Shown one piece after another: positions 18,768 through 34,520 of a DNA stretch of 64,000 nt. Source of the DNA: Kordia sp. TARA_039_SRF (GTDB taxonomy: Bacteria > Bacteroidota > Bacteroidia > Flavobacteriales > Flavobacteriaceae); contig SMNH02000002.1 of the NCBI GenBank assembly GCA_006383075.2, forward strand, positions 121,020 to 185,019, written 5' to 3'. The translations under genes were made by a program, and so were the position numbers. The notes under the pieces are model-generated. The model searched no databases, was not told the DNA's origin, and worked only from the letters and a program-made list of their open reading frames with translations. Each line of letters begins with the position of its first letter. Positions within the stretch are counted from its first letter, which is position 1.

Positions 18768-19814
18768 ATGAAAAAAGTATTATTAATTGAAGATGATACC
18801 ATTTTAAGAGAAAACACCGCAGAACTACTTGAGCTTGCGAATTATGACGTGATTACTGCGCCCAATGGAAAAAAAGGCGTAGAAACTGCCATATTGCAGA
18901 CACCTGATATTATTGTGTGTGATATCATGATGCCGGAATTAGACGGTTATGGTGTGTTGGAAACTTTGTCTAAAAATGATACTACGAAATACATTCCATT
19001 CATCTTTTTATCTGCTAAAACAGAGCGTCAAGATGTTCGCAAAGGAATGGATTTGGGCGCAGATGATTATATTACCAAACCGTTTGAAGAAGAAGAATTG
19101 GTCAGCGCTATTGAAAGTCGCATTGCGAAAGCTGCTATTTTAAAAGAAGAACGCGAACAACATCTTCCAAAAGAAGAAGATAATCAATTGCGCGATTTAA
19201 ACGATTTAAAAAACTTCTTTGATGATAATGGTGCGATTTTCAAGTTTACTAAAGATGAAATTATTTATGAAGAAGGACATAGTTCTAATTATATTTACCT
19301 GATTATCAAAGGTGTTGTAAAATGTCACAAATTTGACGAACAAGGAAAAGAACTCACCACAGCGCTGCACAAAGACGACGATTTATTTGGCTATACTTCC
19401 TTTACGCAAAACATGCCGTACCAAGAAACGGCAACAGCAATGAAAGACACGGAAGTGGTTGGACTTTCGAAAAGTGAATTAGTCGATGTGCTGGATAAAA
19501 ATCACAAAGTAACGCTGGAATTGATTCAGTTGTTGACTGATAATATTTCAGGTATTAAAGACCAATTACTACAAATGGCGTACAGTTCAGTACATCGAAA
19601 AACAGCAACGACGATTTTAAAATTTGCCGAAAAACTCAATCGCAAACCAGAAGATCCAATTAAAATTTCGCGAAACGATTTAGCAAGCGTAGCTGGAATT
19701 GCCACAGAAACCCTTATCCGAACACTCTCGCGCTTCAAAAAAGAAGGCATTATTGAAATTGAAGGTCGCAATATCAAAATTGTAGATTATAAGCAGTTGC
19801 AAGAGATGTATTAA
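18768..19814 (+). CDS. Response regulator: receiver fused to CRP/FNR-type DNA-binding module
   Basis: The 348-residue protein has a receiver domain (residues 1-125) with acidic pocket E8/D9/D10, phospho-acceptor D52 (VCDIMMPELDGYG) and a later Lys (DYITKPFEE). A cyclic-nucleotide-binding-like beta-roll follows (about 147-250: FKFTKDEIIYEEG, YLIIKGVVKCHK), then a Crp-type winged HTH (about 275-345). The recognition helix reads ETLIRTLSRF, which keeps the Glu and Arg that contact TGA half-sites in CRP/FNR, with Ile where FNR has Ser212. There is no N-terminal Cys cluster, so input should come from phosphorylation and not from an Fe-S centre. I infer it controls the six matching promoters at 19838-33207. 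Confidence 0.88.
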   Translation: MKKVLLIEDDTILRENTAELLELANYDVITAPNGKKGVETAILQTPDIIVCDIMMPELDGYGVLETLSKNDTTKYIPFIFLSAKTERQDVRKGMDLGADDYITKPFEEEELVSAIESRIAKAAILKEEREQHLPKEEDNQLRDLNDLKNFFDDNGAIFKFTKDEIIYEEGHSSNYIYLIIKGVVKCHKFDEQGKELTTALHKDDDLFGYTSFTQNMPYQETATAMKDTEVVGLSKSELVDVLDKNHKVTLELIQLLTDNISGIKDQLLQMAYSSVHRKTATTILKFAEKLNRKPEDPIKISRNDLASVAGIATETLIRTLSRFKKEGIIEIEGRNIKIVDYKQLQEMY

Positions 19815-19837: not shown

Positions 19838-19880
19838 TGACCGAAATCATTTTTTGACAAATGCCGACCTATTAGATTTG
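19838..19880 (+). promoter_or_regulatory. FNR-like box and -7 box, first universal stress gene (site A)
   Basis: The box TGACcgaaATCA (19838-19849) is followed 23 nt later by TAGATTTG (19873-19880), an exact TAnnTTTG match, 21 nt before the ATG at 19902. The box-to-promoter spacing equals that of the five related sites and centres the box about 41 bp upstream of the expected transcription start. Confidence 0.75.
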
Positions 19881-19901
19881 TTGGTAAATGTCAAAGTACG
19901 C

Positions 19902-20687
19902 ATGAAAAATATATTATTACCAACAGATTTTTCGCAAAATTCATGGAATGCCATTGCGTATGCGTTGCAGTTTTTAGAACATACACCTTGTAATTTTTAT
20001 CTGTTGCATGTTCTCAATGATGCAGATGTGACTGACATTGGCACACATTTTTCACAAATTTGCACACAAATTTCGACTTCCTTTTTAAAACGTCCACACC
20101 ATCATTTTTTTACGTTAGCGCGTCAATGTTCTTTTGTTGAATCGGTGCGAGAAGAAGTAGAAGATAAAAAGATTGACATGATTATCATGGGCGCCAAAGG
20201 TATTTCTAATACACATACGCACGTTATTGGACATTATGCCGAAAATGTTATCACGAAAGTGAAATGCAAATTGTTAATCGTTCCTGAAAATGCTACCTAT
20301 AAAGTATTTGACGAAGTTGCTTTTCCAACCGATTTTACGCTGGCAACCGATATTCAAACCTTAGCGCCAATCGACACTATTTTGGATGATAAAACAACAT
20401 CGCTTCGTATTTTACATATTAATAAAGTTACCAACGAGTTGAATCAACATCAACAAGCAAACAAAGCTTTGTTAGAGGATTTTTTAGACGGTCGCGAATA
20501 TAGTTTTCACTTTCTGTCGAACACGCATGTAGAAACTGCCGTAGAAAATTTTACCGAACGAAAAGACATCAATCTCATCATTATGGCGGCAAAGAACTTG
20601 AATTATTTTAAACAGATTTTATTCCATTCCAACGTAGATCACATCAGCTATCACCGAAAAATTCCATTTTTAATTCTCCACGAATAA
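19902..20687 (+). CDS. Universal stress protein, two UspA domains
   Basis: The 261-residue protein is built of two tandem UspA domains (about 1-135 and 140-261). The ATG at 19902 is chosen because it begins the canonical MKNILLPTDFSQNSWNAI. An upstream TTG (19854) lies before the promoter box at 19873 and cannot be on the transcript. The first domain has MGAKG and then GHYAENV where ATP-binding USPs have G-(S/T), so nucleotide binding may be altered. Double-UspA proteins are commonly induced by hypoxia, starvation or redox stress. It directly follows the regulator gene and is controlled by site A. Confidence 0.9.
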   Translation: MKNILLPTDFSQNSWNAIAYALQFLEHTPCNFYLLHVLNDADVTDIGTHFSQICTQISTSFLKRPHHHFFTLARQCSFVESVREEVEDKKIDMIIMGAKGISNTHTHVIGHYAENVITKVKCKLLIVPENATYKVFDEVAFPTDFTLATDIQTLAPIDTILDDKTTSLRILHINKVTNELNQHQQANKALLEDFLDGREYSFHFLSNTHVETAVENFTERKDINLIIMAAKNLNYFKQILFHSNVDHISYHRKIPFLILHE

Positions 20688-20712
20688 CCTGTCTTCCAAA
20701 ACCAATACAAGC

Positions 20713-20755
20713 TGATAAATATCATAGTTTTTTGTCCTTATATGCGATACTTTTA
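20713..20755 (+). promoter_or_regulatory. FNR-like box and -7 box, second universal stress gene (site B)
   Basis: TGATaaatATCA (20713-20724) is followed after 23 nt by TACTTTTA (20748-20755), 25 nt before the ATG at 20781. The box has the same half-sites as site C with the central bases reversed. Confidence 0.78.
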
Positions 20756-20780
20756 AACAAGAAATTAAAAACGTACCGCG

Positions 20781-21623
20781 ATGAAAAAAATACTATTACC
20801 AACCGATTTTTCCGAGAACTCGTTGAATGCGATTCGTTACGCTGTTCAACTGTATAAAGACCAAAAATGTAATTTTATTTTGCTCAATACGTACACGCCT
20901 GTAATTTATCATGTACAATATATGGAAGTAGGCGCTGCGCAATTTGGATTGTTGGATGCGTTAAAAGAAAAGTCGCAAAACGGTCTGAAAACTGTACAAG
21001 AAACTATTGAAAAAGAATTTCCGAATCCGAAGCATTTCTTTTCGCGAATTTCTGCATTTAATATGTTGGTTTCTGAAATTGAACAATTGTACGAAGAAGA
21101 CACGATGGACATGATTATCATGGGAACGCAAGGTGCTTCTGGCTTGAAAGAAGTATTGTTTGGCTCTAACATGGTACATGTATTAAAAAACAGCAAATGT
21201 CCATTGCTCGCTGTGCCAAGTAACTATACCTATCAAAATCCGCATGAAATTTTATTTCCTTCCGATTTTGGAGTCGATTTTGAAGAGCGACATGTAACAG
21301 AATTGAAACAAATTGCTTCGTTATTTTCGGCGCGTGTAAATATTTTGCATGTGACCAATTCGGATGCATTATCGCCCTTACAAGAAGCGAACAAACAAAA
21401 ACTTACGACCTTATTAAAAGGAACTTCGCATTTGTTTCACACGGTTCATCATCACGATATTGGAACGGCTATTCAAGAATTTCAATCACAATCGCGCGTT
21501 GACTTTTTAGCCATGCTGAATAATAAACATTCGTTTTTTGAAAACTTATTTTTCGGCTCTAAGGTCAAACAAATCGGATTGCACTTAAACACACCGTTTT
21601 TGGTCATTCCCGCAAAAATATAA
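20781..21623 (+). CDS. Universal stress protein, two UspA domains
   Basis: The 280-residue double UspA protein begins MKKILLPTDFSENSLNAIRY. The first domain ends with MGTQGASGLKEVLFGSN, a complete G-2x-G-9x-G-S ATP-binding signature near residues 114-130. The second domain (about 150-280) is degenerate and ends in PFLVIPAK. It is related to the flanking universal stress proteins, probably by tandem duplication. It is transcribed from its own FNR-like promoter (site B), and the third copy follows after 45 bp without one, suggesting a two-gene transcript. Confidence 0.92.
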   Translation: MKKILLPTDFSENSLNAIRYAVQLYKDQKCNFILLNTYTPVIYHVQYMEVGAAQFGLLDALKEKSQNGLKTVQETIEKEFPNPKHFFSRISAFNMLVSEIEQLYEEDTMDMIIMGTQGASGLKEVLFGSNMVHVLKNSKCPLLAVPSNYTYQNPHEILFPSDFGVDFEERHVTELKQIASLFSARVNILHVTNSDALSPLQEANKQKLTTLLKGTSHLFHTVHHHDIGTAIQEFQSQSRVDFLAMLNNKHSFFENLFFGSKVKQIGLHLNTPFLVIPAKI

Positions 21624-21668
21624 TTTACACAACAAACAACATTTTACCTAAATTTTAATTTAAACATC

Positions 21669-22496
21669 ATGACAAATATTCTTTTGCCAACTGATTTTTC
21701 TGATAATGCTTGGAGTGCTATTATTTACACTTTAAAATTATATCAACACGAAACTTGTAAATTTTACTTATTAAATACTGAAAAAGTAGCTTCATCTCGC
21801 ATCTCAAGTTTCTCTAATAAACTATTAAAAACCATGCTTGACAATGCGCGAAAAGATGTTGAAAAGCTAAAAAATCAAATTGAAGCCACCAACGCCAATA
21901 GCAATCACGAGTTTGAAGCTATGGTTGTTTTGGGCGATTTGGACGATGTGATTGAAGATTTCGTACCCAAATACAATATTGATCTCATTGCGATGGGAAC
22001 CAAGGGAGCTACAGGCGCTAAAGGAATTTTATTTGGAAGCAATACGGCTAAAATTTTTAAGAAAGTAAAAGAGTGTCCAATTCTTGCCATTCCAAACGAT
22101 TATGAATTTACAACTCCGAAACAAATTGCCTTTCCTACCGATTTGAATCGTTACTGCGATGCGAAGGAATTGCATCATTTACAGCAATTGACAGATTTGT
22201 ATAATACTAAAGTTAGAATTGTTCATATCAATGACAACGACGTTTTAAGCGACAAACAAGAGAAGAACTTGAACGTTTTAAAAGAATACTTAAAAAATTA
22301 CGAACACAGCGTGCATATTATTCCAAGTTATGCCAATAAAGAAACAAGTATTCACGATTTTATTGACGAATTGGAAATTGACATTCTGGCAATGGTACAT
22401 TACTCACACAGTTTTATCGACGGAATTTTGCGTGAGCCTGTCATTAAAAAAATTGCTTTTAACCTAAAAGTACCGTTTTTAGTCATTCCTGAGTAA
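21669..22496 (+). CDS. Universal stress protein, two UspA domains
   Basis: The 275-residue protein starts MTNILLPTDFSDNAWSAI and has a full ATP-binding signature MGTKGATGAKGILFGSN near residues 106-122 in domain one. Domain two (about 148-275) is degenerate and closes with PFLVIPE. It is the third member of the tandem set; no box or -7 sequence is seen in the 45-bp gap before it, so it is likely cotranscribed with the 20781 gene. Site C begins right at its stop codon. Confidence 0.92.
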   Translation: MTNILLPTDFSDNAWSAIIYTLKLYQHETCKFYLLNTEKVASSRISSFSNKLLKTMLDNARKDVEKLKNQIEATNANSNHEFEAMVVLGDLDDVIEDFVPKYNIDLIAMGTKGATGAKGILFGSNTAKIFKKVKECPILAIPNDYEFTTPKQIAFPTDLNRYCDAKELHHLQQLTDLYNTKVRIVHINDNDVLSDKQEKNLNVLKEYLKNYEHSVHIIPSYANKETSIHDFIDELEIDILAMVHYSHSFIDGILREPVIKKIAFNLKVPFLVIPE

Positions 22497-22498
22497 GC

Positions 22499-22541
22499 TG
22501 ATATTTATCATAGTAATTCTGTAATGTTCGGCGTACTTTTA
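22499..22541 (+). promoter_or_regulatory. FNR-like box and -7 box of the 22568 operon (site C)
   Basis: TGATatttATCA (22499-22510) is followed after 23 nt by TACTTTTA (22534-22541), 26 nt before the ATG at 22568. The -7 box is identical to that of site B. Confidence 0.78.
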
Positions 22542-22567
22542 CTACTATAATCAATACCATAAAGCTC

Positions 22568-23020
22568 ATGAAAACGATACAAACAACTCCAAAATATATT
22601 GAATGGATTAGTGCTGAAGATATGCACACAGATTCATTGCATTGGTTATCACAATTGAATTTTATCAAAGACGAGCATTTCTTTTTTGAAGATTTAATTT
22701 CCACGTTTTCGTCACAGTTAAAAAAACTGGATGTTTTTTCTAGCGATAAGGAAATTATTGATGTTATAACACGCTCCTATCGACGTACAGAACAACTTAT
22801 CAGCGTGGTAAAGAAACATGAAAAAGAGTTGGAAATTATGCTCGATGGCGTTGATCAAATTGAAGATGAAAAAAAATACAAAGAAACGCACCGAAACCTA
22901 TCGAAAGAAATGGAAGAGTTTTTCAAGGAATATCGCGGGTTGAAAGTGCAATTGTTCAACATCATCAAAAACATTAAAAAAGAAGAAAAATTACAGTCTT
23001 CGCTCGATAAAAAACTATAA
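22568..23020 (+). CDS. Coiled-coil protein of unknown function
   Basis: This 150-residue soluble protein is mostly helical. Residues 60-150 are rich in Lys/Glu and look like a pair of coiled-coil helices (ISVVKKHEKELEIML, then EEFFKEYRGLKVQLF). No signal peptide and no family recognised. Position suggests a role in the stress regulon: it is transcribed from site C and followed after 11 bp by two lipoprotein genes. Confidence 0.7.
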   Translation: MKTIQTTPKYIEWISAEDMHTDSLHWLSQLNFIKDEHFFFEDLISTFSSQLKKLDVFSSDKEIIDVITRSYRRTEQLISVVKKHEKELEIMLDGVDQIEDEKKYKETHRNLSKEMEEFFKEYRGLKVQLFNIIKNIKKEEKLQSSLDKKL

Positions 23021-23031
23021 ATACTATCCTT

Positions 23032-23709
23032 ATGAAACGTATTTTCTATCTCGTATGTATAAGCTTGTTGCTTTTCCCTGCCTGTACCTCAACACAATTG
23101 GTTGATCAGTGGAAAAACCCTGATATTGATGTATACGAACCACAAAAAGTGTTGATTGTTGGATTGACATCTAATGTAGAAGCACGTCAAAAATTTGAAC
23201 AAAAACTCAAAGAAGAATTAGAAGCGCGTGGTAGCGAAGCTGTAACGAGTCTTACCATTTTCAATCCAGCTATGCAACCAGAAAAGCTTACTGAAGATGA
23301 ATTAAAAGCGATAGAAAATTCGTTAATTGAAGATGGTTTTGACACTATTTTACTCACTAAAATCATTGGTGTAGAAGATAAAATTGCCTACAAAAAAAAT
23401 TATGATGATTATGACGAAACTTATCGTAAATTTAGAAGCGAATATTTAATGTATCAAGATATTTATTACAATCCTGATTATTACAACGAATACAAGGTGT
23501 ACCATTCGGAAACCTCTATGTATTGTATTTGTCCGACGAAAGACAGAGAGTTGCTTTGGAAAGGATATATAGACATTGTAGATCCGACTTCTATTAAAAA
23601 ATCGGTCACCGATTATGTGTATATGGCATTGGCTGTTTTGGAAAACGAACAGCTCATCAAACCAAAAACAACTCGTAAAAAAGAAAACACAGAAGAATTG
23701 ATTAACTAA
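23032..23709 (+). CDS. Envelope lipoprotein, unknown function (paralogue 1)
   Basis: The 225-residue protein has a lipoprotein signal (LFPAC, Cys18). The mature domain begins QLVDQWKNPDIDVYEPQKVLIVGLTSN and ends with ISKSVTDYV-type helices before a charged tail. It is clearly homologous to the next gene product, which shares HWKNPEV, NPKNVLVVGVT and the C-terminal order. An alpha/beta fold that starts with the VLIVGLT strand is likely. No enzymatic motif is recognised. It is 11 bp after the coiled-coil gene and 9 bp before its paralogue. Confidence 0.75.
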   Translation: MKRIFYLVCISLLLFPACTSTQLVDQWKNPDIDVYEPQKVLIVGLTSNVEARQKFEQKLKEELEARGSEAVTSLTIFNPAMQPEKLTEDELKAIENSLIEDGFDTILLTKIIGVEDKIAYKKNYDDYDETYRKFRSEYLMYQDIYYNPDYYNEYKVYHSETSMYCICPTKDRELLWKGYIDIVDPTSIKKSVTDYVYMALAVLENEQLIKPKTTRKKENTEELIN

Positions 23710-23718
23710 TCAAAAAAA

Positions 23719-24354
23719 ATGAAAAAAATTACGCTATACATTATTGCTCTTTTAACCATAAGTTGCGCTTCTATACAACGCGGTGAGCATTGGAAAAACC
23801 CAGAAGTCACTGAATTCAACCCCAAAAATGTATTGGTAGTTGGTGTAACGCCCGATTTAGATGCACGTAGCAACTTTGAATTTGTATTGGTACAAGAACT
23901 CAACAAACGAAATATCAACGCTATACAAAGTACCGTGGTGTTTGAAAAACTATTTCAAGACGCGACCAAAACCGAAGCGGAAATTGAAGCAAAAATCAAC
24001 ACCTTACTTACGGAAGGTTTTGAAACAGTCTTAGTTTCTGCGGTAAAAGGTGTCCAAGAAAATGAATCGCGAAGTGGCGCTTCTCCGCAATTTGACTACA
24101 GTTTGCAACGTTTTTTAGGTGGTTATTTAGCTTCTCGCGATGATTATTTCAGTCAGGAAGACTATAAAAAATACCAAGTGTTTTATGTAGAAACGACCAT
24201 ATACAGCTTGCAAAAAGATGAAGAAAAATCACTCGTTTGGTTAGATTCGTACAATATCATCAATCCTGAAAATATTGCGGCTATGACTGACGAATACGTC
24301 AAAAAAATCATAAAATCTATGGAAAAAGAAAAACTCATTCCAAAGAAAAAATAA
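23719..24354 (+). CDS. Envelope lipoprotein, unknown function (paralogue 2)
   Basis: The 211-residue protein has a short signal and lipobox (TISC, Cys14). Sequence order matches the preceding gene product: EHWKNPEVTEFNPKNVLVVGVT, then an EGFETVLVSAVKGV segment and a terminal EYVKKIIKSMEKEKLI helix. Tandem duplication is the simplest explanation. It is the last gene of the site C transcript; a large hairpin follows at 24408. Confidence 0.75.
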   Translation: MKKITLYIIALLTISCASIQRGEHWKNPEVTEFNPKNVLVVGVTPDLDARSNFEFVLVQELNKRNINAIQSTVVFEKLFQDATKTEAEIEAKINTLLTEGFETVLVSAVKGVQENESRSGASPQFDYSLQRFLGGYLASRDDYFSQEDYKKYQVFYVETTIYSLQKDEEKSLVWLDSYNIINPENIAAMTDEYVKKIIKSMEKEKLIPKKK

Positions 24355-24407
24355 TCTTTAAATACATAAAAAGACTTTACACATAGTTTCTCCCTGCAAC
24401 TTCACAG

Positions 24408-24460
24408 TACCACAATACAGAAAATGTATCTTTAAAACATTCTGTATTGTGGTATTTTGT
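24408..24460 (+). terminator. Strong stem-loop terminator
   Basis: Perfect 15-bp arms TACCACAATACAGAA (24408-24422) and 24440-24454, with a 17-nt loop and then TTTTGT. It closes the operon that starts at 22568. Confidence 0.75.
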
Positions 24461-24562
24461 ATATTTAGCTAAAAATATTCCCCAAATAGCAATATCACAT
24501 TGCCGTAACCAAACAACAGAATAATATCCTATAACTTTAAAAAGTATAGATTTATAACGTAC

Positions 24563-27511
24563 ATGAAAAAATATTACAAATTGATATGCTGTGTATTGCT
24601 ATGTGGCTTGCATACAATGTTTGGACAAAATGAAGGGAATAATTGGTACTTTGGAACCAATGCTGGTCTAGATTTTAGCACAACGCCACCAAGCGCTTTT
24701 CTCAATGGTGCATTAACTACCAACGAAGGTGTCGCAACTATTTCTGATAGTAGCGGACAATTGCTTTTTTACACCGACGGAAGCACCGTATACGACAAAA
24801 ACCATCAAATTACGCCAAATGGAACTGGCTTGACAGGAAATAGTTCCAGTACACAATCTGCTGTGATTGTTCCTAAACCTGGCGATTCAATGATTTACTA
24901 TATTTTTACGGTGGATGAAGGCGCAGGACCTGACGGACTTCGCTACTCAGAATTCGATTTATCGTTAAACAATGGCAATGGCGACGTTACTACGCTTAAA
25001 AATGTACTACTCTCAACGCCTACTACTGAAAAAATTACCGCCGTACAAAAAACCAACGGAACCGATTTTTGGGTACTCAGTCACTCGTGGCAAAACGATA
25101 CTTTTCTAATCTATGAAGTCACTACAGCTGGCGTAAATGAAACTGCTATTACACAAAACATTGGCTCAATACATACGGGTGGTTCTGCGGAATCTATAGG
25201 CTATTTCAAAACTTCTTCTAACGGAGAACGACTTGCCATTGCACAATGGGGCTCTAACAGCTTTGTAGAACTTTTTGATTTTGATGCAGATACAGGTGTC
25301 ATTTCCAATCCTATAAAACTTGAAAATGTATTCTTTAATGGCTCTAGTTCAGGAGCATACGGTGTTGAATTTTCTCCAGATGCACAACTATTATATGTGT
25401 CCGATTTGAATTTTGACGATGTTAGTAGTCCCGACAACGGACGTGTACATCAATTTGATTTAACTTCAGGAAATGTAACTGATATTGCCAATTCTGACGT
25501 CATTGTTTATCAAGGAAATAATTTTATAGGTGCTATTCAAATAGCCAATGATGAACGCTTGTATTTGGCAAACTCAGGCAGTCAATTTGTAGATGTCATT
25601 GAAAATCCGAATGTTATCGGAACTGGTGCTACGTATGTAGTAGACGCTATTGATTTACAAGGACGTACGTGCAGATTGGGACTTCCAACATTTATACAAT
25701 CTTTTTTTGGAGCTACCATTCAGCTAGAAAATTTCTGTTTAGGCGACGTCACAAATTTTTCGCTAAATACTACTGAAGATCCTGTATCTGTCAATTGGGA
25801 TTTAGGCGACGGCACTACTTCTACCAGTTTTACACCTTCACATACGTACGCCAGTATAGGAACATACACCGTATCCGCAGACATAAATTTTGGTACTGAA
25901 ATTCGACAAACTAGCAAAGAAATTACCATCTATGAAGTTCCGACAGCAAGTACTGTGGGCGATTTTTTATTGTGTGATGATAGCTCCAACAATCAAATTG
26001 AAAGCTTTGATTTAAGTACAAAAATTACCGAAGTGTTAGGTTCGCTCTCAAATCAAACTTTTGATGTGGCTTTTTATAGTTTGTTAGAAGATGCCGAAAA
26101 TGACCAAAATCGGTTGCCTTTAACATATTCCAACACGACAAACAATCAAGAAATCTTTGCGCGAATTTATAATGTTGGACAAGGAAATTGTTACGATATC
26201 ACTAGTTTTATGCTCATCGTCAATCCTTTTCCCGTAGCAAATACGGTAGCTAATATTGATATCTGTGACGATCAAAGCAATGACGGTTCAGAAGTGGTCA
26301 ATCTCAATCAATTTAACAGCGAGGTATTGCTCGACCAAACTGCGGAAGACTTTGAAATTACCTATCATCTCACACAAGACGACGCCGATAATGACATTAG
26401 TGCGTTACCGACAAATTTTCAAACCGTAGACAATCCGCAAACTTTATTCGTACGAATAGAAACTGCTGGAAATCCGTTGTGCTTTGACACTACCGATTTT
26501 GAAATCAACATTACACCTGCCATTATTGCCAATGAAATAAACGACTTATTTGAATGTAGCTTTTTGGACGATGCAAACTCAGCGACATTCAACTTAGCGT
26601 CTCAAAATGATGACATTATAAACGGACTTACAGGAAATTATGAAATCACTTTTCACCTCAGCGAGCAAACTGCGATGATGGATACGGAATCCATTAGCAG
26701 TACATTTACCAACACAAGCAATCCGCAGCAAATCTACGTTCGTGTAGAAGACACCACAAATGCTAGCTGTTTTGATATTGTCAATTTTCAAATTACAGCG
26801 CTCGCTACACCAATCATCAACGAAAACGAAACTGTGTATTTGTGTACGGACGGAACTGTAGAATTATCTGCCGGCGTTCCTGCCGATTTTTATAATTGGT
26901 CTACTGATGAAATCACCGAAAGTATTATTGTAGATACGCCAGGAACGTATACGGTTGACGTTGGAAATAGTTATACCGCTTTGGGTGAACAAATTGATTG
27001 CAGCAATACCAAAACATTTACCGTGATAGAATCTGGACCAACGCTAAGCATTGATGTAAGCATTACGGATTGGACAAATTTTCAAAACACCATTTTAGTC
27101 ATGGCAGAAGGTTTGGGCGATTATGAATATTCGTTAGATGGCATCAATTACACCGATGATAACTTTTTTGAAAACTTGCTTTCGGGCGAATACACGGTAT
27201 ATGTTCGAGATAAAAATGGTTGTGGAGTTGTCACGGAACCAGCGTATCTTCTAAATTACCCACGATTTTTCACGCCAAACAACGACGGCATCAACGACAA
27301 TTGGCAAATTGTAGCTGCTGCCAGCGACCCTACACTTCAAATCTTTATTTTTGATAGATACGGAAAACGCCTTACGACCTTAAACCCAACATCTGTCGGC
27401 TGGAACGGCAACTACAACGGACGACCAATGCCGTCAGGTGATTACTGGTTTAAAGTAGAACGTCCAATGACAGGAAATGTATATACAGGACATTTTACGT
27501 TGAAGCGATGA
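24563..27511 (+). CDS. Large secreted protein with PKD domain and T9SS type B sorting domain
   Basis: The 982-residue protein has a signal peptide (1-22, ending FGQ). An N-terminal beta-propeller-like region follows (about 25-390, with NNWYFGTNAGLDF, GLRYSEFDLS and GVEFSPDAQLLYVSDL). A PKD domain lies at about 395-460 (VNWDLGDGTTSTSF). Three repeats of roughly 100 residues come next (about 465-780), each starting with a D-x-C/L-C-DD pattern such as FLLCDDSSNN or IDICDDQSND. The C-terminal gliding-motility/T9SS type B domain (about 890-982: FFTPNNDGINDNW, IFDRYGKRL, GNYNGRPMPSGDYWF) directs secretion through the type IX system to the surface. Likely an adhesin or surface-structure protein; the binding target is unknown. 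Confidence 0.88.
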   Translation: MKKYYKLICCVLLCGLHTMFGQNEGNNWYFGTNAGLDFSTTPPSAFLNGALTTNEGVATISDSSGQLLFYTDGSTVYDKNHQITPNGTGLTGNSSSTQSAVIVPKPGDSMIYYIFTVDEGAGPDGLRYSEFDLSLNNGNGDVTTLKNVLLSTPTTEKITAVQKTNGTDFWVLSHSWQNDTFLIYEVTTAGVNETAITQNIGSIHTGGSAESIGYFKTSSNGERLAIAQWGSNSFVELFDFDADTGVISNPIKLENVFFNGSSSGAYGVEFSPDAQLLYVSDLNFDDVSSPDNGRVHQFDLTSGNVTDIANSDVIVYQGNNFIGAIQIANDERLYLANSGSQFVDVIENPNVIGTGATYVVDAIDLQGRTCRLGLPTFIQSFFGATIQLENFCLGDVTNFSLNTTEDPVSVNWDLGDGTTSTSFTPSHTYASIGTYTVSADINFGTEIRQTSKEITIYEVPTASTVGDFLLCDDSSNNQIESFDLSTKITEVLGSLSNQTFDVAFYSLLEDAENDQNRLPLTYSNTTNNQEIFARIYNVGQGNCYDITSFMLIVNPFPVANTVANIDICDDQSNDGSEVVNLNQFNSEVLLDQTAEDFEITYHLTQDDADNDISALPTNFQTVDNPQTLFVRIETAGNPLCFDTTDFEINITPAIIANEINDLFECSFLDDANSATFNLASQNDDIINGLTGNYEITFHLSEQTAMMDTESISSTFTNTSNPQQIYVRVEDTTNASCFDIVNFQITALATPIINENETVYLCTDGTVELSAGVPADFYNWSTDEITESIIVDTPGTYTVDVGNSYTALGEQIDCSNTKTFTVIESGPTLSIDVSITDWTNFQNTILVMAEGLGDYEYSLDGINYTDDNFFENLLSGEYTVYVRDKNGCGVVTEPAYLLNYPRFFTPNNDGINDNWQIVAAASDPTLQIFIFDRYGKRLTTLNPTSVGWNGNYNGRPMPSGDYWFKVERPMTGNVYTGHFTLKR

Positions 27512-27601
27512 ATTTTAAAATCTCATCAAAATACGCAACTCTACGTATTGTGCATCTTTTAAAAAAAATAAAAATTAGCGATACTTTAAGAATTCTATCG
27601 C

Positions 27602-28630
27602 ATGCAAAAACAACTTACCCAAAAAGACCGTAGAAAAATAAAAGGAAAACTTTGGATTGGCGGAGTTTTTCTACTAATTGTCATCGCCTTTTTTTATGGA
27701 ATTTACCAATTTGTACTTCGTGATGCCTTCACAGAAACTGGCGGTTTTGGAGCAGTTCCGCTCGTCATCTTTGGTATTTTCGGATTGTTCTTTTTGGGAG
27801 TGGTTGGCTATATAATCTCAAAGTTTTTAAAAGACTTAAACTTAGGTGTCAAAAATTGCATCGAAGGCGTAGTGGAAGACAAACAATTGAGCATCAAAAA
27901 ATCTACTTCACACAGTTCAGGAACTGGAGCACGAAGCGGTCGTTCTTCCAAAACAAATACACAGCGTTATTATTACATGACCGTAAATGGCGAACAGCAC
28001 AAAATTGAATATCCGATGTATGCCAAAATAAAAGTCGGCGACACTATTTACTTTGAAGTAACGCCAAGTTCTAAAACCATTCTATCGTACGACATTCTTC
28101 AAAGTGCTGCTGATACCGTGAATCCTACGAAAATGCATCATAAAAGCAGCTATCCAACGTCCAGAATCCGACAAGCACCTTTGACACGAGAAGACCGCGA
28201 AATCATTTATGAATATTACAGAAAACAGTTAAAAAGACGTCTTACCTACATAGTACTTTTTGGATTGCCTGTGGTAGGGTTGCTACTCAATAGCTTGGAA
28301 GGCATTTTACTGTTGATTTTCCCTATACCGTTGATTCTACTATATCAAATTTATAAAACGGTGCGATTGTACTTCAACTATAAGAAATCAATGGAAAACG
28401 GCAGAAAAGAATTGGTTACGACACATATTGTAGATAAATTATACACCACAATTACACACAACGGAAGGCAACGCGTAAAATATACCTTGAAAACAACCTA
28501 TGGAAACATTTCGATTCCCGAAGAATATTACAAAGAATTCAATACAGGCGACGAAATCATAGCACATAAAGCCTTGAATTTGCCCGTAGTCGTCGGAATT
28601 GCCATAGATGATTATTACTATCCTTTTTAA
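27602..28630 (+). CDS. Integral membrane protein, unknown function
   Basis: The 342-residue protein has two helices near the N-terminus (about 17-38 and 53-77), a cytoplasmic or periplasmic domain (80-205) with a Ser/Gly-rich loop (STSHSSGTGARSG), two more helices (about 215-255), and a C-terminal beta-rich domain. The two extra-membrane parts look related to each other (YYYMTVNGEQHKIEYP and VKYTLKTTYGNISIPEEY), suggesting internal duplication of a small DUF3592-like module. No function recognised. Confidence 0.65.
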   Translation: MQKQLTQKDRRKIKGKLWIGGVFLLIVIAFFYGIYQFVLRDAFTETGGFGAVPLVIFGIFGLFFLGVVGYIISKFLKDLNLGVKNCIEGVVEDKQLSIKKSTSHSSGTGARSGRSSKTNTQRYYYMTVNGEQHKIEYPMYAKIKVGDTIYFEVTPSSKTILSYDILQSAADTVNPTKMHHKSSYPTSRIRQAPLTREDREIIYEYYRKQLKRRLTYIVLFGLPVVGLLLNSLEGILLLIFPIPLILLYQIYKTVRLYFNYKKSMENGRKELVTTHIVDKLYTTITHNGRQRVKYTLKTTYGNISIPEEYYKEFNTGDEIIAHKALNLPVVVGIAIDDYYYPF

Positions 28631-28708
28631 ATTTTTAACAACTTTCTTCCGCTTCCGTTGGACGGATTCTTAAAAGAATTGTATTTTTCAAACTTCATAA
28701 TCAATCGC

Positions 28709-30130
28709 ATGAAGAAAAAAATAATTCTCGTAGTAGGCCCTATCTTATGTTTACTGTTTTTTTGGAGTCCGTTCGAAATTTTAAATCCTGAAGCGGATAA
28801 AGTGATAGGAATTGCTTTGTGGATGATTTTATGGTGGATTACCGAAGTGGTTTCTATTTCTGTCACCGCACTAATTCCGTTGACGTTTTTTCCCGTATTC
28901 GGGATTATGCCAATTAAAGATGTCGCGGTAAATTATGGTCATCCGATTATTTTTCTATTTTTTGGCGGATTTGTCCTAGCATTGGCACTTGAAAAAGTAA
29001 ATCTGCATCGGCGCGTTGCCTTGTCTATCATCAAACTTACAGGGACAAGTCCTAATAAAATCATTTTAGGTTTTATGCTAGCAACAGCGTTTTTAAGCAT
29101 GTGGATAAGCAATACCGCGACTACTGTCGTGATGTTGCCTATTGCCTACTCTGTGATTGAATTATTGATGAACGACGCAGATGGTTTTACCAAAAAAGAC
29201 CGAAATTTTGCACTGAGCATGATGTTGGGAATTGCGTATGCTGCCAATGTTGGCGGCATTGCGACGCTTATTGGAACACCACCAAATGTGGTACTTGCAG
29301 GATTTATGGAAAACGAATACAACTACAGTATTTCGTTTCTGCAATGGATGCTCGTAGGCATTCCGTTTGCCATTTTGATGTTGTTTTTTATCTATCACGT
29401 ATTGACCAAAATCATGTATCCGAACAAATTGGCTTCGTTTGAAAAATCGGGAGAAATTATTTCGCGTGAAATGGAGAAATTAGGCAAGATTAAAACCGCT
29501 GAAGTGATTGTATTGACCATTTTTATCATTGCGATTACGCTTTGGATTGGAAAAAATTATATCAACAGTCTGTTTCCGAATTTGAATTTGAGTGATACTA
29601 CCATCAGTATGCTAGCGGCTTTTGCGTGTTTTACGGTGTCACATCACAAAAATCCTGTTCTAGCGTGGAATGATACACAACGATTGCCGTGGGGAATTTT
29701 AATATTATTCGGCGGCGGATTGGCATTAGCAAGTGCGCTTTCCAATGTTGGCATCATTGACATGATTGGAACTGCGGTAAGCGACCACAAAACATTCAGC
29801 ATTTTATTTATTTGTAGTGTCTTAATTTCCGTGATGTTATTTATGACAGAATTGATGAGCAATGTAGCTTTAATCGCTATTTTTGCGCCAATGGTGGCAG
29901 GAGTTGCCATCGGATTGAATATAGAGTTACTGCACATTTTAATTCCTGTAACGATGGCTTCTAGCTGTGCGTTTATGTTGCCGATGTCTACACCACCAAA
30001 TGCCATTGTTTTTGCGAGCGGACATGTAAAAGTAGCTCAAATGGCACGTGCAGGATTTTTATTGAATGTTATTTCTATTGTATTGCTGATTCTATTTTTT
30101 CAGTTTGTGATTCCGTTGGTATTTGTCTGA
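28709..30130 (+). CDS. SLC13/DASS-family sodium-coupled anion transporter
   Basis: The 473-residue carrier has about 12 membrane segments. Start ATG 28709 (MKKKIILVVGPILC) is preferred to an upstream TTG at 28658. Family motifs are visible: WWITEVVSISVTALIPL, LFFGGFVLALALEK, the SNT motif in SMWISNTATTVVMLPI, GGIATLIGTPPNVV, and the second SNT-like TELMSNVALIAIFAPM, followed by MPMSTPPNAIVFASG. These SNT repeats bind sodium and a carboxylate or sulfate. The substrate cannot be set from sequence; dicarboxylates are the usual choice. It is convergent with the 30611 gene, 25 bp apart. Confidence 0.88.
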   Translation: MKKKIILVVGPILCLLFFWSPFEILNPEADKVIGIALWMILWWITEVVSISVTALIPLTFFPVFGIMPIKDVAVNYGHPIIFLFFGGFVLALALEKVNLHRRVALSIIKLTGTSPNKIILGFMLATAFLSMWISNTATTVVMLPIAYSVIELLMNDADGFTKKDRNFALSMMLGIAYAANVGGIATLIGTPPNVVLAGFMENEYNYSISFLQWMLVGIPFAILMLFFIYHVLTKIMYPNKLASFEKSGEIISREMEKLGKIKTAEVIVLTIFIIAITLWIGKNYINSLFPNLNLSDTTISMLAAFACFTVSHHKNPVLAWNDTQRLPWGILILFGGGLALASALSNVGIIDMIGTAVSDHKTFSILFICSVLISVMLFMTELMSNVALIAIFAPMVAGVAIGLNIELLHILIPVTMASSCAFMLPMSTPPNAIVFASGHVKVAQMARAGFLLNVISIVLLILFFQFVIPLVFV

Positions 30131-30155
30131 TTTGATGATTTTTTGTGATTCAAAG

Positions 30156-30611
30156 TTAACTTCGGCGCATTCTTCCCGTGATTTCTTCAATATGAATTAG
30201 AAAAATTACAGGAAAGTCGTCTTTGTAAATTTTACTAGAAAATTCGTTGATAAAGTCCAATTTTCGTTGCTCTTTTCGGATAATTAAATCTTTCACACCT
30301 AAAGAAAAATCATGCAAATACGCTTTTGCGGTGCTTCCTTCCAATTCTTCATACAAACCGTGCACAACAATCGTATTCCAATGATTTACAGAATCAATTT
30401 CGGCAACTTCCATCGCTACGTTATTGACTTTTCGCATGGCTTTTATTTTATGTCCTTCCGCAGAATAGCCAATAATGATGTTTCGTTCTTTGTCAAAATA
30501 ATACGTTATCGGTGCAATAAATGGGCGATTTTGGTAGATATACGCCAAATGACCGATATAGTTTTCTTCTAAAATTTGCAAGCGTTCCGTTTGGTTGAGT
30601 ACTTTAATCAT
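30156..30611 (-). CDS. Pyridoxamine 5'-phosphate oxidase-like flavin-binding protein
   Basis: The 151-residue split-barrel protein starts with the usual helix LNQTERLQILEENYIGHLAY and continues RPFIAPITYYFD, a NVAMEVAEID strand and VVHGLYEELEG. This is the PNPOx-like family that binds FMN, F420 or haem. Related small proteins are frequent in hypoxia/dormancy regulons (for example DosR-regulated members in mycobacteria). It has its own FNR-like promoter (site D) in the 89-bp gap behind the metal ATPase gene. Confidence 0.85.
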   Translation of the reverse strand: MIKVLNQTERLQILEENYIGHLAYIYQNRPFIAPITYYFDKERNIIIGYSAEGHKIKAMRKVNNVAMEVAEIDSVNHWNTIVVHGLYEELEGSTAKAYLHDFSLGVKDLIIRKEQRKLDFINEFSSKIYKDDFPVIFLIHIEEITGRMRRS

Positions 30612-30633
30612 GATGATACATTTAGGTTCTATA

Positions 30634-30676
30634 CTAAAGTATATATATCGACTCGATTAAAATATGATTTTGGTCA
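30634..30676 (-). promoter_or_regulatory. FNR-like box and -7 box of the flavin-binding protein gene (site D)
   Basis: On the minus strand the box TGACcaaaATCA (30676-30665) precedes TACTTTAG (30641-30634) by 23 nt, and the ATG is at 30611. The -7 box has one departure from TAnnTTTG. Confidence 0.7.
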
Positions 30677-30700
30677 GTTGTGCAGACTTTACAAGTATTG

Positions 30701-32668
30701 TCAGGATGTTTCATACCGAAGCAAGCGCAACGCATTTAGTACAACTACAATGGTTGAACCTTCATGTAGTAATACGGCAACGCCAATGTTGGTTAAGCCT
30801 AAAATGGTAATCGGCACTAGAAACAACACCATTCCCAAACTAATCCAGATGTTTTGTGTAATGATTTTTTTAGAAGCATTACTCAATCCGAACACGAATG
30901 GAAGACTTTCTATTTTGTCAGACATCAATGCTACATCAGCAACTTCTAAGGCGACATCGCTTCCTGCAGCGCCCATGGCAACACTTACTGTACTAAGTGC
31001 CATTGCAGGCGCATCGTTAACACCATCGCCTACCATTGCTACTTTTTTATGCGATTGTAATAGCTTTTCAATTTCCGAAACTTTGGCTTCGGGAAGTAGA
31101 TTTCCTCTGGCTTTCGAAAGTCCAATTTGCTGTGCAATAGCATCGCCTACATGTTGATGATCACCTGTAAGCATAATCATGAATTTTACGCCTATTTTGC
31201 GCAATCGCTCAATGGTACTTTTGGCGGTTTTTCTAGGAACATCCATGACGCTTATCATTCCGATGAGTTGACTTTGAAACGCTACCAACATCACGGTTTC
31301 TCCTTTTTGCAATAGCGTTTTCATGCCAGATTGAATCGAATCATTCACTGCTATTCCTTCACTTTCCATCATCGCCACATTTCCAATACACACTTTTTCG
31401 TTTTGATATATTGCGGTAATTCCTTTTCCTTGAATGGCTTCAACATCTGTAGCTTTGTCTGTTGCTTCTAGGTGATACCGTTTTTGAATGTCTTTTGCAA
31501 TCGCCTTTGCCAACGGATGATTGCTTAAACTTTCAACTTCCAACACCAATTCAGCTAATTTCGTTTCCTCAAAATCATGAAGTGGAATGATGTTTTTGAG
31601 TGATGGTTTTCCTTCCGTTAGCGTTCCTGTTTTGTCAAAAGCAATCGCTTTGATGCTTCCCAAATCTTCGAGTGCTTTTCCGCCTTTTATCAATACACCT
31701 TTTTGTGCGGCTCTTGCAATGCCACTTAAGACAGCACTTGGCGTAGAAATTGCCAACGCACACGGACTTGCCGCGACTAATACGGTAATGGCTCTGTACA
31801 GACTTTCGTCGAATGTTTCATCAATCACCACATATCCAAAACACAGTAAAAATACTACAATAAGTACTATTGGCACATACCATTTTTCAAACTTTTTTGT
31901 GAGTCGCTGTGTGGGCGATTTTTGCGTTTCTACTTCACTCACCATATCAATCAATCGAGCTACGGTTGAATCTTTACTGAGTTTGAGCACCTGCACTTCA
32001 ATACTATGATCACCATTGATGGTTCCTGCAAATACGGTGTGTTTTTTGTCAATTTCGCTAAATTCTGGTAAATTCTCTGTTGACGGAATTTCAAATTTAT
32101 CCACAGGAATACTTTCGCCCGTAATTGGTGCCTGATTCACACTTGAGTGTCCGGAAATAACAACACCATCTGCCGCGATTTTTGTGTTCGGTTTCACAAC
32201 AATGATATCGTTAATTTGTAAATCTTCAATCGGAATTTCGTGAAGTGTATCATTTTGTTTTACCAAAGCTGTTTTGGGCGATAAATTACCCAAGGCTTCT
32301 ATCGATTTTTTAGCTTTGTGCATCGCGTAATGTTCCAGCGCATGTCCCAAACTGAACAAGAATAACAGCAACGCACCTTCTGCCCAACTGTCAATATACA
32401 TCGCGCCAAGCGCGGCTGCAATCATTAAAAAGTCAATATCAAATTCGCCTTTCGGGATTTTTTTGATGGCTTCCAAACTCACAAAATAACCACCAAATAC
32501 ATACGAAAATATATAAATGGTTTTCCAAACAGCTGTTGGGAATTCCGTAAGTTTTTCCAACAAAAAACCCACTAGTAAAAAGAAACCGCACAACAAGGCA
32601 AAATACAATTCTGTGTTTTTACCAAATATACCGTGATGTGAGTGTTGATGAGCTGTGGAAGTCGCCAT
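30701..32668 (-). CDS. P1B-4-type heavy-metal-translocating ATPase
   Basis: The 655-residue pump starts with a His-rich tail (HQHSHHG) and has no N-terminal HMA domain. Hallmarks: TGESIPVDK in the actuator domain, a transmembrane SPC motif at residues 301-303 in place of CPC, phosphorylation site D345 (DKTGTLTEG), an HP pair in the nucleotide domain (SNHPLAKAI), GDGVNDAPA, and H635 in LLHEGST in the last helices. SPC plus HEG(S/G)T defines subgroup P1B-4, whose members export Co(II), Fe(II), Ni(II) or Zn(II). It is 9 bp downstream of the terB-like gene and should be cotranscribed from site E. Fe(II) export during oxygen limitation would fit the regulon, but this is inference. Confidence 0.9.
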   Translation of the reverse strand: MATSTAHQHSHHGIFGKNTELYFALLCGFFLLVGFLLEKLTEFPTAVWKTIYIFSYVFGGYFVSLEAIKKIPKGEFDIDFLMIAAALGAMYIDSWAEGALLLFLFSLGHALEHYAMHKAKKSIEALGNLSPKTALVKQNDTLHEIPIEDLQINDIIVVKPNTKIAADGVVISGHSSVNQAPITGESIPVDKFEIPSTENLPEFSEIDKKHTVFAGTINGDHSIEVQVLKLSKDSTVARLIDMVSEVETQKSPTQRLTKKFEKWYVPIVLIVVFLLCFGYVVIDETFDESLYRAITVLVAASPCALAISTPSAVLSGIARAAQKGVLIKGGKALEDLGSIKAIAFDKTGTLTEGKPSLKNIIPLHDFEETKLAELVLEVESLSNHPLAKAIAKDIQKRYHLEATDKATDVEAIQGKGITAIYQNEKVCIGNVAMMESEGIAVNDSIQSGMKTLLQKGETVMLVAFQSQLIGMISVMDVPRKTAKSTIERLRKIGVKFMIMLTGDHQHVGDAIAQQIGLSKARGNLLPEAKVSEIEKLLQSHKKVAMVGDGVNDAPAMALSTVSVAMGAAGSDVALEVADVALMSDKIESLPFVFGLSNASKKIITQNIWISLGMVLFLVPITILGLTNIGVAVLLHEGSTIVVVLNALRLLRYETS

Positions 32669-32677
32669 GAATGTTGC

Positions 32678-33094
32678 TTATGTATCTGACTTTTCTTTGA
32701 ATTCGATGCTTAATTTTCCAAGTAAAATCAATTCTGACTTGTTGACATCTGAAAAACTACCTGCAATTTTTCCAGCAATTTTCAAGATGGCTTTTTTGAT
32801 TTCAGCTGTAAACAACGATTCGTTATTGCGTTTGTACTTGATAAATTCTTCGTAACAATCTTCCGAAGTTGCTTTATCAAAATACAGAATTTTAAATGTT
32901 GCGGTTATTTGGTGTTCAATATCAATTTCGGCATCTGTAATCTTAACATTTTCGCTTATGCTTAACAGCGAAATTTCTTTTCGCATCGCCTCAAATTCTT
33001 CTTTTTTTATCTTAGAATCTGCCAAAGCAATCGCATAGAAAAGTTTTCCCAAATGTTGGTAAAATACGACTGCGGCTTGTGTGGTAAGGTTCAT
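32678..33094 (-). CDS. TerB-like protein
   Basis: The 138-residue all-helical protein resembles the TerB/DjlA N-terminal fold, with the N-terminal pattern FYQHLGKLFYAIALADSKI followed by KKEEFEAMRKEI. An acidic metal-binding turn follows the A-x-A-D motif, as in other TerB-like proteins. TerB proteins occur in tellurite and stress-response systems and may bind metal. It is the first gene of a two-gene transcript with the P1B-4 ATPase, driven by site E in the divergent control region. Confidence 0.7.
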   Translation of the reverse strand: MNLTTQAAVVFYQHLGKLFYAIALADSKIKKEEFEAMRKEISLLSISENVKITDAEIDIEHQITATFKILYFDKATSEDCYEEFIKYKRNNESLFTAEIKKAILKIAGKIAGSFSDVNKSELILLGKLSIEFKEKSDT

Positions 33095-33110
33095 ATAGAT
33101 GCGTTTCTTA

Positions 33111-33153
33111 CAAAGCTACGGTATTTCTGCGTGTTTACCAATGACAACTATCA
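33111..33153 (-). promoter_or_regulatory. FNR-like box and -7 box of the terB/ATPase operon (site E)
   Basis: On the minus strand TGATagttGTCA (33153-33142) is followed after 23 nt by TAGCTTTG (33118-33111), an exact -7 match, 16 nt before the ATG at 33094. It is the left half of a divergent pair. Confidence 0.8.
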
Positions 33154-33164
33154 ATTGGCAAATA

Positions 33165-33207
33165 TGACCTATATCATGTTTTTTGCGGTTCTATTCCAAT
33201 AGCTTTG
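33165..33207 (+). promoter_or_regulatory. FNR-like box and -7 box of the hibernation factor operon (site F)
   Basis: TGACctatATCA (33165-33176) is followed after 23 nt by TAGCTTTG (33200-33207). Sites E and F lie 11 bp apart and use the same -7 octamer in opposite directions, so one regulator could fire both operons. Confidence 0.8.
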
Positions 33208-33212
33208 TTATT

Positions 33213-33266: not shown

Positions 33267-33310
33267 ATTGTAAAAAAGTTAGTTCAATTCAATTATAAAA
33301 TTTTAAAATT

Positions 33311-33613
33311 ATGAAAATAAATATTCAATTTCTCCACATGCCAACTAGTGAAGCTATGGAAGCGTATGTAACTGAAAAACTAAATAATTTGGCAAAAAAG
33401 TATGATATGATTATTCATATTGATGTACTTTTTAAAAGTGAAAAAGACCCGAAAGGAAAAGGAAATATTTGTGAGATGGAAGCGAGTTTATCTGGGCCGC
33501 GAATTTTTGCTTCTTCTAATGAGGAAAATTATGAAGTAGCTGTAAAACATTCTATTAAAGATTTAGAGAAGCAACTCGAAAAACGCAAAAGCACACTAAA
33601 GCCGTATTTGTAG
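33311..33613 (+). CDS. hpf: Ribosome hibernation promoting factor (HPF/RaiA, short form)
   Basis: The 100-residue protein matches short HPF/YfiA/RaiA: MKINIQFLHMPTSEAMEAYV, EKLNNLAKKYDMIIHIDVLF, and the basic end KDLEKQLEKRKSTLKP. These proteins bind the 30S decoding centre and silence or dimerise ribosomes in resting cells. It lacks the C-terminal dimerisation domain of long HPF. Its promoter carries FNR-like site F, linking hibernation to the same signal as the stress proteins. It is probably the first gene of a three-gene transcript (49 bp to the next gene). Confidence 0.88.
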   Translation: MKINIQFLHMPTSEAMEAYVTEKLNNLAKKYDMIIHIDVLFKSEKDPKGKGNICEMEASLSGPRIFASSNEENYEVAVKHSIKDLEKQLEKRKSTLKPYL

Positions 33614-33662: not shown

Positions 33663-34520
33663 ATGACACAAAGCGACTTCAATATCATCAAATCATCAGG
33701 TGAAAAGGCTAAATTTTCGCTGACTAAACTTCGGAACTCACTGAAACGAACTGGCGCGGATGAAAACTTCATCAATCAGATTTTGGATAAAGTTCGCGAC
33801 GAATTGTATCAAGGTATTTCTACCAAAGAAATTTACAACAGAGCCTTTGCCCTTTTGAAACGAAAGAAGAGTTACTTAGCGTCCAAATACAAACTGAAAA
33901 AAGCCATTTACGAGTTAGGACCAACAGGATTTCCGTTTGAACGTTTTGTGAGTGCTATTTTAACCTATTCGGGCTATGAAACGGAAGTTGGGAAAATTAT
34001 GCAAGGAACCTGCGTATCGCACGAAATTGATGTGATTGCTGATAAAAACGGAAAAACAACGGTGATTGAATGCAAGTTTCACAGCGAACAAGGAATTGCC
34101 TGCAATGTCAAAGTCCCGCTGTACATTCACTCACGGTATGAAGATGTAAAATCGCATTGGAATGGCAATGCAAAAAAACGTACGGAACTTACCAAAGGTT
34201 GGGTAGTCACCAACACCCGATTTACCAAAGATGCACTAGCGTACGGAAACTGTGTTGGTTTGTATTTGCTCAGTTGGGATTATCCTGAAAATGAAGGACT
34301 CAAAGATAGAATTGACCGATTGGGCTTGTACCCTATCACGGTTTCTACCTTGCTTACAAAACGCGAAAAGCAGTTTTTGCTCAGTAGAGATATTGTGTTG
34401 TGTCGCGAATTGCTTCACGACAAGTTTTTTCTTGACCATTTGAACATTTCAGAAACGCGACAAGAGAAAATTTTACGTGAAATTTCATTATTGTGTAATC
34501 TTTCAAATCCAACGGAATGA
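33663..34520 (+). CDS. ATP-cone domain fused to an Mrr-like restriction endonuclease domain
   Basis: The 285-residue protein has an N-terminal ATP-cone (residues 8-90: IIKSSGEKAKFSLTKLRNSL, then ISTKEIYNRAFALLKRK), the nucleotide-sensing module known from ribonucleotide reductase and NrdR. A PD-(D/E)XK nuclease-like domain follows (about 95-200) with EIDVIADKNGKTTVIECKFH, which has the D-(x)n-E-x-K pattern. A C-terminal helical part ends it. Such a fusion suggests nucleic-acid cleavage gated by ATP/dATP; it is found near stress genes in other bacteria by my recollection. It overlaps the MBL-fold gene by 4 bp (ATGA), so the two are translationally coupled. Confidence 0.82.
   Translation: MTQSDFNIIKSSGEKAKFSLTKLRNSLKRTGADENFINQILDKVRDELYQGISTKEIYNRAFALLKRKKSYLASKYKLKKAIYELGPTGFPFERFVSAILTYSGYETEVGKIMQGTCVSHEIDVIADKNGKTTVIECKFHSEQGIACNVKVPLYIHSRYEDVKSHWNGNAKKRTELTKGWVVTNTRFTKDALAYGNCVGLYLLSWDYPENEGLKDRIDRLGLYPITVSTLLTKREKQFLLSRDIVLCRELLHDKFFLDHLNISETRQEKILREISLLCNLSNPTE

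Follow-up and report, generated by a model that had tools for sequence, protein, structure and literature searches.

A fixed 23-nucleotide spacing marks candidate FNR-type, probably low-oxygen promoters in Kordia and other Flavobacteriaceae

Background

In Escherichia coli, the FNR box has the form TTGAT-N4-ATCAA, and a class II activator site is centred near -41.5. The present work concerns six boxes of the form TGAY-N4-RTCA in a stretch of 64,000 nucleotides of Kordia sp. TARA_039_SRF (contig SMNH02000002.1, positions 121,020 to 185,019), here called "the window", and a nearby gene for a "receiver-CRP", a response regulator in which a receiver is fused to a CRP/FNR-type protein. The original prediction, made from the letters of the window, took the six sites for the promoters of a local regulon.

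In the same phylum, the HcpR regulators of Bacteroides and Porphyromonas also belong to the CRP/FNR family, but they differ in their GTAAC-N4-GTTAC box (in most of them; Porphyromonas deviates) and in their target, hcp; they have no FNR cysteines, and the accessible text mentions no receiver (PMC1274295). The cbb3 oxidase is upregulated under oxygen limitation in a Flavobacterium, in a study whose accessible text names no regulator (PMC9723704). Our literature search, which left subscription journals mostly outside, found in accessible texts no FNR-type regulon and no receiver-CRP described in flavobacteria; the accessible part of PMC12531629 makes no mention of Bacteroidota, flavobacteria, receiver, response regulator or TGA box.

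The reading that we favour, and consider likely with some room for doubt, is that each of the six sites is an activator promoter of class II and belongs to a regulon of FNR type that spans the genome and probably responds to low oxygen, FNR and the receiver-CRP sharing one box.

Results

Six boxes at one distance from the -7 box

The window scan finds the palindromes where they had been described, each 23 nucleotides from its -7 octamer. Four are on the + strand: TGACCGAAATCA (19838..19849), followed by the -7 box TAGATTTG (19873..19880); TGATAAATATCA (20713..20724), with TACTTTTA (20748..20755); TGATATTTATCA (22499..22510), again with TACTTTTA (22534..22541); and TGACCTATATCA (33165..33176), with TAGCTTTG (33200..33207). 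Two are on the - strand and are given as read on it: TGACCAAAATCA (30665..30676), with TACTTTAG (30634..30641), and TGATAGTTGTCA (33142..33153), with TAGCTTTG (33111..33118). The octamers had been called TAnnTTTG-like: the gap holds at all six sites, and the octamer of the site at 30665, TACTTTAG, departs from that consensus.

The palindrome itself is modestly enriched in the window, with 11 occurrences against 5.6 expected, and five of them (29403, 31246, 38209, 45332 and 46316) lack the spacing. Such a modest excess of bare boxes would suit a chance agreement in an AT-rich genome. The histogram of gaps from 8 to 45, however, contains six sites at gap 23 and zero or one at each other gap; with 0.12 expected at one gap, the binomial probability of six or more is 1.5e-9, uncorrected for the 38 gaps, in keeping with the claim that chance agreement is very unlikely.

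The -7 box of the sigma-A promoters of Flavobacterium psychrophilum occupies positions -12 to -5 (PMC9723704). Combined with a gap of 23, these coordinates place the six boxes at a predicted -47 to -36, hence with their centre at -41.5, which fits the class II geometry that had been proposed. The predicted transcription starts are 19885, 20760, 22546, 30629, 33106 and 33212.

The same promoter type across the genome

The genome of the window comprises 4.59 Mb in 27 contigs. Searching it for the box and the -7 pattern at gaps of 10 to 40, a check that had been named beforehand, yields 106 matches, and 37 when the pattern is reversed. Among the 100 of these 106 that were listed, 14 have gap 23, and the runner-up gap has 6. 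Of these 14 boxes, twelve fall between genes; the other two, C4:119870 and C5:229869, lie within long open reading frames and are probably chance matches.

Promoters with gap 23 precede hemN (TIGR00538), which is followed by a universal stress protein (USP) gene; a CBS/USP gene pair and the divergent gene of a 621-amino-acid CBS protein; the cbb3 oxidase genes, of which the first is a fused ccoNO (identified by family search on the copies of the relatives G001, G004, G007 and G008); the gene of a pyridine-nucleotide oxidoreductase, ferredoxin-reductase-like, accompanied by a Fer2-like protein; an OmpW gene; and a TonB-dependent receptor gene. Because the same promoters stand ahead of hemN, the cbb3 oxidase, CBS/USP and other genes, we assign the window sites to an FNR-like respiratory regulon.

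At L022:7196-7207, a box stands between cydA and the gene of a TonB-dependent receptor; its spacing of 23 holds only toward the latter, and cydAB is therefore not counted as a direct target. The box between fnr and ccoI, through which fnr might regulate itself, has imperfect -7 elements: AACCTTTG at 23 toward ccoI, and TAATTTT at 25 toward fnr.

Conservation in Flavobacteriaceae

A first survey covered 40 genomes, the window's own and 39 relatives, with gaps of 20 to 26 allowed: among 150 places listed, from 20 genomes, 113 are at gap 23 and the other six gaps have 2 to 12 each. The strict pattern TGAYN4RTCAT-N22-TANNTTTG was then applied to 199 Flavobacteriaceae genomes. It is present in 180 of them, with 1,286 matches in all, against 12 (about 0.02 per Mb) for the reversed pattern. 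A local regulon is rejected as a full account of the six sites, since the same promoters occur genome-wide and across the family; the window's genome also holds a second candidate regulator, a CxxC-type FNR whose gene adjoins ccoI.

Boxes with this spacing cluster around receiver-CRP genes. We examined 80 loci of flavobacterial record title, surrounding the best 80 of 569 receiver-CRP relatives. Gap 23 is found at 309 sites and in every locus, whereas the other 32 gaps have a mean of 6.2 sites and a maximum of 14. Three scrambled boxes give 1, 1 and 0 sites at gap 23, with the reservation that they are themselves rarer (130 to 194 oriented sites, against 970 for the real box). An oriented box lies within 250 nucleotides past the stop codon of the receiver-CRP in 68 of the 80 loci, and strict sites reach 99 per Mb in these loci compared with 2.3 to 2.6 per Mb in whole receiver-CRP genomes, a density about 40-fold higher. 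With peaks at gap 23 in the window, its genome, its relatives and the receiver-CRP loci, we reject chance as the origin of the spacing and regard it as extraordinarily improbable.

A slightly wider -7 pattern gives 365 sites in the 80 loci, and for 312 of them an open reading frame of at least 90 amino acids starts within 250 nucleotides (53 have none). At these 312 sites, the ATG follows the -7 box at a median of 23 nucleotides, with quartiles 20 and 26; the genes behind them are USP-like in 160 cases, TerB-like in 46 and unassigned in 68.

The outer positions of the two half-sites are unlike, since a T directly follows TCA on the promoter side in 297 of the 309 sites (96%), whereas TGA is preceded by C in 167 and by A in 98. 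On the promoter side, this T is perhaps part of the -33 region.

A receiver-CRP paralogue, with about 42% identity, occurs at three loci, L146 (G006:C17), L126 (G021:C16) and L134 (G011:C13). At these and at L147 (G006:C45) there are TGACCTAGGTCA-like boxes with the same gap of 23; box position 5 is a C in 54% of the 26 sites of the four loci, versus 15% of the 365 sites of the 80 "A-type" loci. The kinase at the paralogue locus L126 matches LOV blue-light domains.

Two candidate regulators

A PF13545 search of the window's genome returns four Crp helix-turn-helix proteins. Two of them have a recognition helix of the form A-T-E-[ST]-x-I-R: the CxxC-type FNR (G000:C1:329814-330488, from the same search and alignment), with A-T-E-S-x-I-R, and the receiver-CRP of the window (18768..19814, + strand), with A-T-E-T-L-I-R. 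The helices of the remaining two are T-S-R-P-T-L-N and S-S-R-V-V-I-S-R. The description of the box as FNR-like stands, and the receiver-CRP is a strong candidate reader.

Pfam, alignment and relatives agree that the receiver-CRP consists of a receiver, a cNMP-binding fold (cNMP_binding) and a Crp helix-turn-helix (HTH_Crp_2). Pfam finds in it no output domain of the NarL/FixJ type, a trait of FixJ and DosR, and no CxxC of an FNR-type cysteine cluster precedes its CRP part. The phosphorylation residues D9, D10, D52, S82 and K104 of the receiver are invariant, as far as sequence goes, in all eight receiver-CRPs aligned.

In most of 27 aligned FNR sequences (L021:4314-4991 among them), the CxxC and one further cysteine are conserved, the latter in a VCF motif that we take to be the counterpart of E. 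coli Cys122. The third classical ligand is missing and another cysteine (YC/FC) is mostly conserved; the FNR of G028 lacks all four. Judged by sequence, the cysteine pattern of flavobacterial FNR may represent a variant cluster site. A gene of receiver-CRP type lies within 7 kb of fnr in at least 13 genomes (34 receiver-CRP places entered).

Boxes where one regulator is detected

Regulators were called present in the 199 genomes at E 1e-40 for FNR and 1e-60 for the receiver-CRP. Weak FNR hits (G043 and G057, for instance) and receiver-CRPs of B type (G011, G123, G168 and G206, among others) thus count as present; each of the 38 genomes with only a receiver-CRP has a relative of at least 56% identity. 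Both regulators are found in 67 genomes, with 2.59 boxes per Mb and at least two boxes in every one. The 38 receiver-CRP-only genomes have 2.27 boxes per Mb, again with at least two in each and a median of 8. Seventy-two genomes have FNR only, with 1.14 boxes per Mb, a median of 4 and at least two boxes in 59; and 22 have neither, with 0.22 boxes per Mb. The last group is smaller in genome size (mean 2.65 Mb), and among genomes of at least 2.5 Mb the mean box counts are 10.2 for both, 7.9 for receiver-CRP only, 4.3 for FNR only and 0.9 for neither. The family offers in this respect a natural experiment on how one transcription factor might give way to another with the binding sites left in place.

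In G004, G005, G007 and G008, of the window's genus, the FNR search returns only the receiver-CRP and distant Crp relatives; in G004, a single contig, and in G008, a different gene adjoins ccoI at the place of fnr, with no fnr between. G004, G007 and G008 nevertheless retain all nine of their boxes at ccoN, CBS and hemN/USP4. At L142:16990 in G004, hemN is gone from the conserved stretch and its box now stands ahead of USP4; in G005, only the box at the hemN position was seen, and hemN itself is absent there. Outside the genus, G017, also with no FNR hit, has a boxed cbb3 oxidase gene about 13 kb from its receiver-CRP. At the receiver-CRP locus of G005 (L143, G005:C16:62000-81500), the kinase, USP1 and lipoprotein frames are shortened, perhaps through decay or draft errors.

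These data bear on two simpler accounts. FNR alone could read all the boxes, the receiver-CRP binding elsewhere and its gene just being located among FNR targets; the boxes kept in FNR-only genomes agree with this, as do core targets that are classical FNR targets. But the boxes of all receiver-CRP-only genomes, the 40-fold density at the receiver-CRP locus and the boxes retained in three congeners with no FNR hit make this account quite improbable. Conversely, the window promoters could form a local regulon driven by the receiver-CRP alone, with a separate genome-wide FNR set, as the concentration of boxes at the receiver-CRP locus and the mainly USP and TerB-like targets there would suggest. 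The boxes of the locus and of the respiratory genes are, however, identical in form and spacing, the respiratory ones persist in congeners with no FNR hit, and the two recognition helices are nearly identical, so that we judge this account unlikely too.

The kinase and its signal

Directly upstream of the receiver-CRP lies a PAS histidine kinase (17516..18748, + strand; Pfam, PDB, orthologues). Its PAS domain has 14 matches in PDB: 11 are FixL or DosP, one is a "Heme pas sensor protein", one is YddU, which we take to be DosP, and one is a multi-sensor kinase. His64 and Arg84 align with a His and an Arg of FixL chain 1d06, the proximal and distal residues of its haem pocket. A PAS profile search covered the 76 kinases directly upstream of a receiver-CRP, four of the 80 loci being excluded for want of a full upstream open reading frame: 55 have both His and Arg, 16 have His only, four lack His and one has no PAS hit. 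These observations support, but do not prove, that the kinase PAS is a haem oxygen sensor.

The signal might instead be redox, light or nitric oxide, read by a PAS with another cofactor or none. In some kinases an additional PAS carries a LOV-like FLQ motif, not every kinase has the distal Arg, and targets such as USP and HPF suit energy stress equally well; yet the PDB matches are nearly all haem oxygen sensors, and the cbb3 oxidase and hemN are among the targets. We hold this alternative to be possible but doubtful. In seven of the 21 kinases listed (L195, L203, L205, L209, L211, L240 and L257), a FixL-like first PAS is followed by the FLQ-bearing one; for such proteins, a joint oxygen and light input is possible.

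Genes behind the window promoters

Each box lies just upstream of a gene, as had been noted. The first precedes USP 1 (19902..20687), of double length though Pfam recognizes a single Usp stretch, and the second precedes USP 2 (20781..21623); USP 3 (21669..22496) has no box of its own in the window genome by motif scan. The third stands before a probable operon (22568..24354) of a 150-amino-acid, coiled-coil protein and two lipoprotein-like proteins. All these are on the + strand.

On the - strand, the box at 30665 precedes a Pyridox_ox_2 family protein (30156..30611), and that at 33142 precedes a 138-amino-acid protein (32678..33094), weakly TerB-like, and a heavy-metal P-type ATPase with an SPC motif (30701..32668; family search), which we assume from its motifs to be P1B-4-like. 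The last box, on the + strand, faces a short HPF-like ribosome hibernation factor (Ribosomal_S30AE; 33311..33613), followed by an ATP-cone/Mrr nuclease and a beta-CASP nuclease of metallo-beta-lactamase fold (33663..35890), probably in the same operon. The predicted leader of HPF is longer, about 99 nucleotides (33208-33310), with a seven-codon open reading frame at 33235; in the relative G002 it would be about 36 nucleotides.

Among the labels first given to these genes, Pfam upholds USP, HPF and Pyridox_ox_2; TerB falls below the cut-off (E 0.075), and the coiled-coil and lipoprotein-like proteins have no convincing Pfam family. The USPs, HPF, nucleases and metal ATPase suggest energy-saving or dormancy roles. 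The gene set bears out the predicted likeness to hypoxia regulons, that to DosR being functional only.

Discussion

Under low oxygen, the neighbouring kinase would sense oxygen through haem and phosphorylate the receiver-CRP, and FNR would acquire its cluster. Dimers of either protein could then occupy the same TGAY-N4-RTCA boxes at -41.5, where the bound dimer would replace the -33 element and activate, rather than repress, transcription by sigma-A polymerase at the Bacteroidota -7 box. Such a pathway would amount to the FixL-FixJ-FixK cascade compressed into a kinase and one fused protein.

Several points weigh against this shared-box mechanism. Arg is replaced in 16 of the 71 kinases that retain His, and PAS domains that are not known to bind haem can have the FixL-like His and Arg too. 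The window's own genome has both regulators, so FNR could read all its sites. Four of the 22 genomes with neither regulator hold 2 to 4 boxes; absence of fnr means no search hit, in genomes that are mostly drafts; and because the genomes are related, the Mann-Whitney values of the comparison are not independent tests. Other Crp proteins might also read the box. In G004 and G008, one whose helix is KESLVR is a candidate for this; the best hit of G020 has the same helix, and G020 has zero boxes. In eight single-contig receiver-CRP-only genomes screened with PF13545 for glutamate helices of this kind, four (G061, G072, G122 and G182) have no such protein besides receiver-CRPs, a point in favour of the mechanism, and four (G090, G117, G143 and G216) do: the helices are VETVIR (G090 and G216) and DEQVIR (G117), together with SRETLSR in G143 and TPESLSR in G090, both from weak members of the family.

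A broader scenario, to which we give about even credence, is that the receiver-FNR fusion merged FixL-FixJ-FixK into one step and, in many Flavobacteriaceae that had lost fnr, inherited the ancestral regulon of FNR; elsewhere, iron-sulfur and haem-kinase signals would compete for the box or share it. The paralogue, which neighbours a LOV-domain kinase in at least one genome, would read a shifted box, TGACCTAGGTCA, in unchanged geometry. With the gap fixed at 23, the regulon can be annotated directly from genome sequence; for a large family of bacteria, this provides a promoter code for low oxygen that can be put to the test.

Comparison with known systems

The promoters resemble those of class II E. 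coli FNR in that the palindrome is the core of the FNR box, its centre is near -41.5 and the respiratory targets are those of low oxygen. They differ in their Bacteroidota -7 box, in the fixed spacing, in an outer T that only the promoter-side half-site conserves, and in a box apparently common to FNR and a response regulator. With mycobacterial DosR/DevR they would share a two-component response to hypoxia, along with many universal stress proteins, but the output domain of DosR is of NarL type and its DNA box is different, whereas the output of the receiver-CRP is of Crp type.

The NmpRSTU system of Myxococcus xanthus has a haem-dependent kinase, as is proposed here, with cbb3 oxidase and HemN promoters among its targets, but it works through an NtrC-like regulator and a protoglobin sensor (PMC11841059). 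The rhizobial FixL-FixJ-FixK/FnrN network (PMC7888657) offers further likenesses: a FixL-like PAS kinase, a box of FNR/FixK type, cbb3 oxidase genes as targets, and parallel hFixL and FnrN inputs. In rhizobia, expression of the FixK gene is induced by a separate regulator, FixJ or FxkR; here, a single protein combines the receiver with the CRP part, and thus no transcriptional relay is needed.

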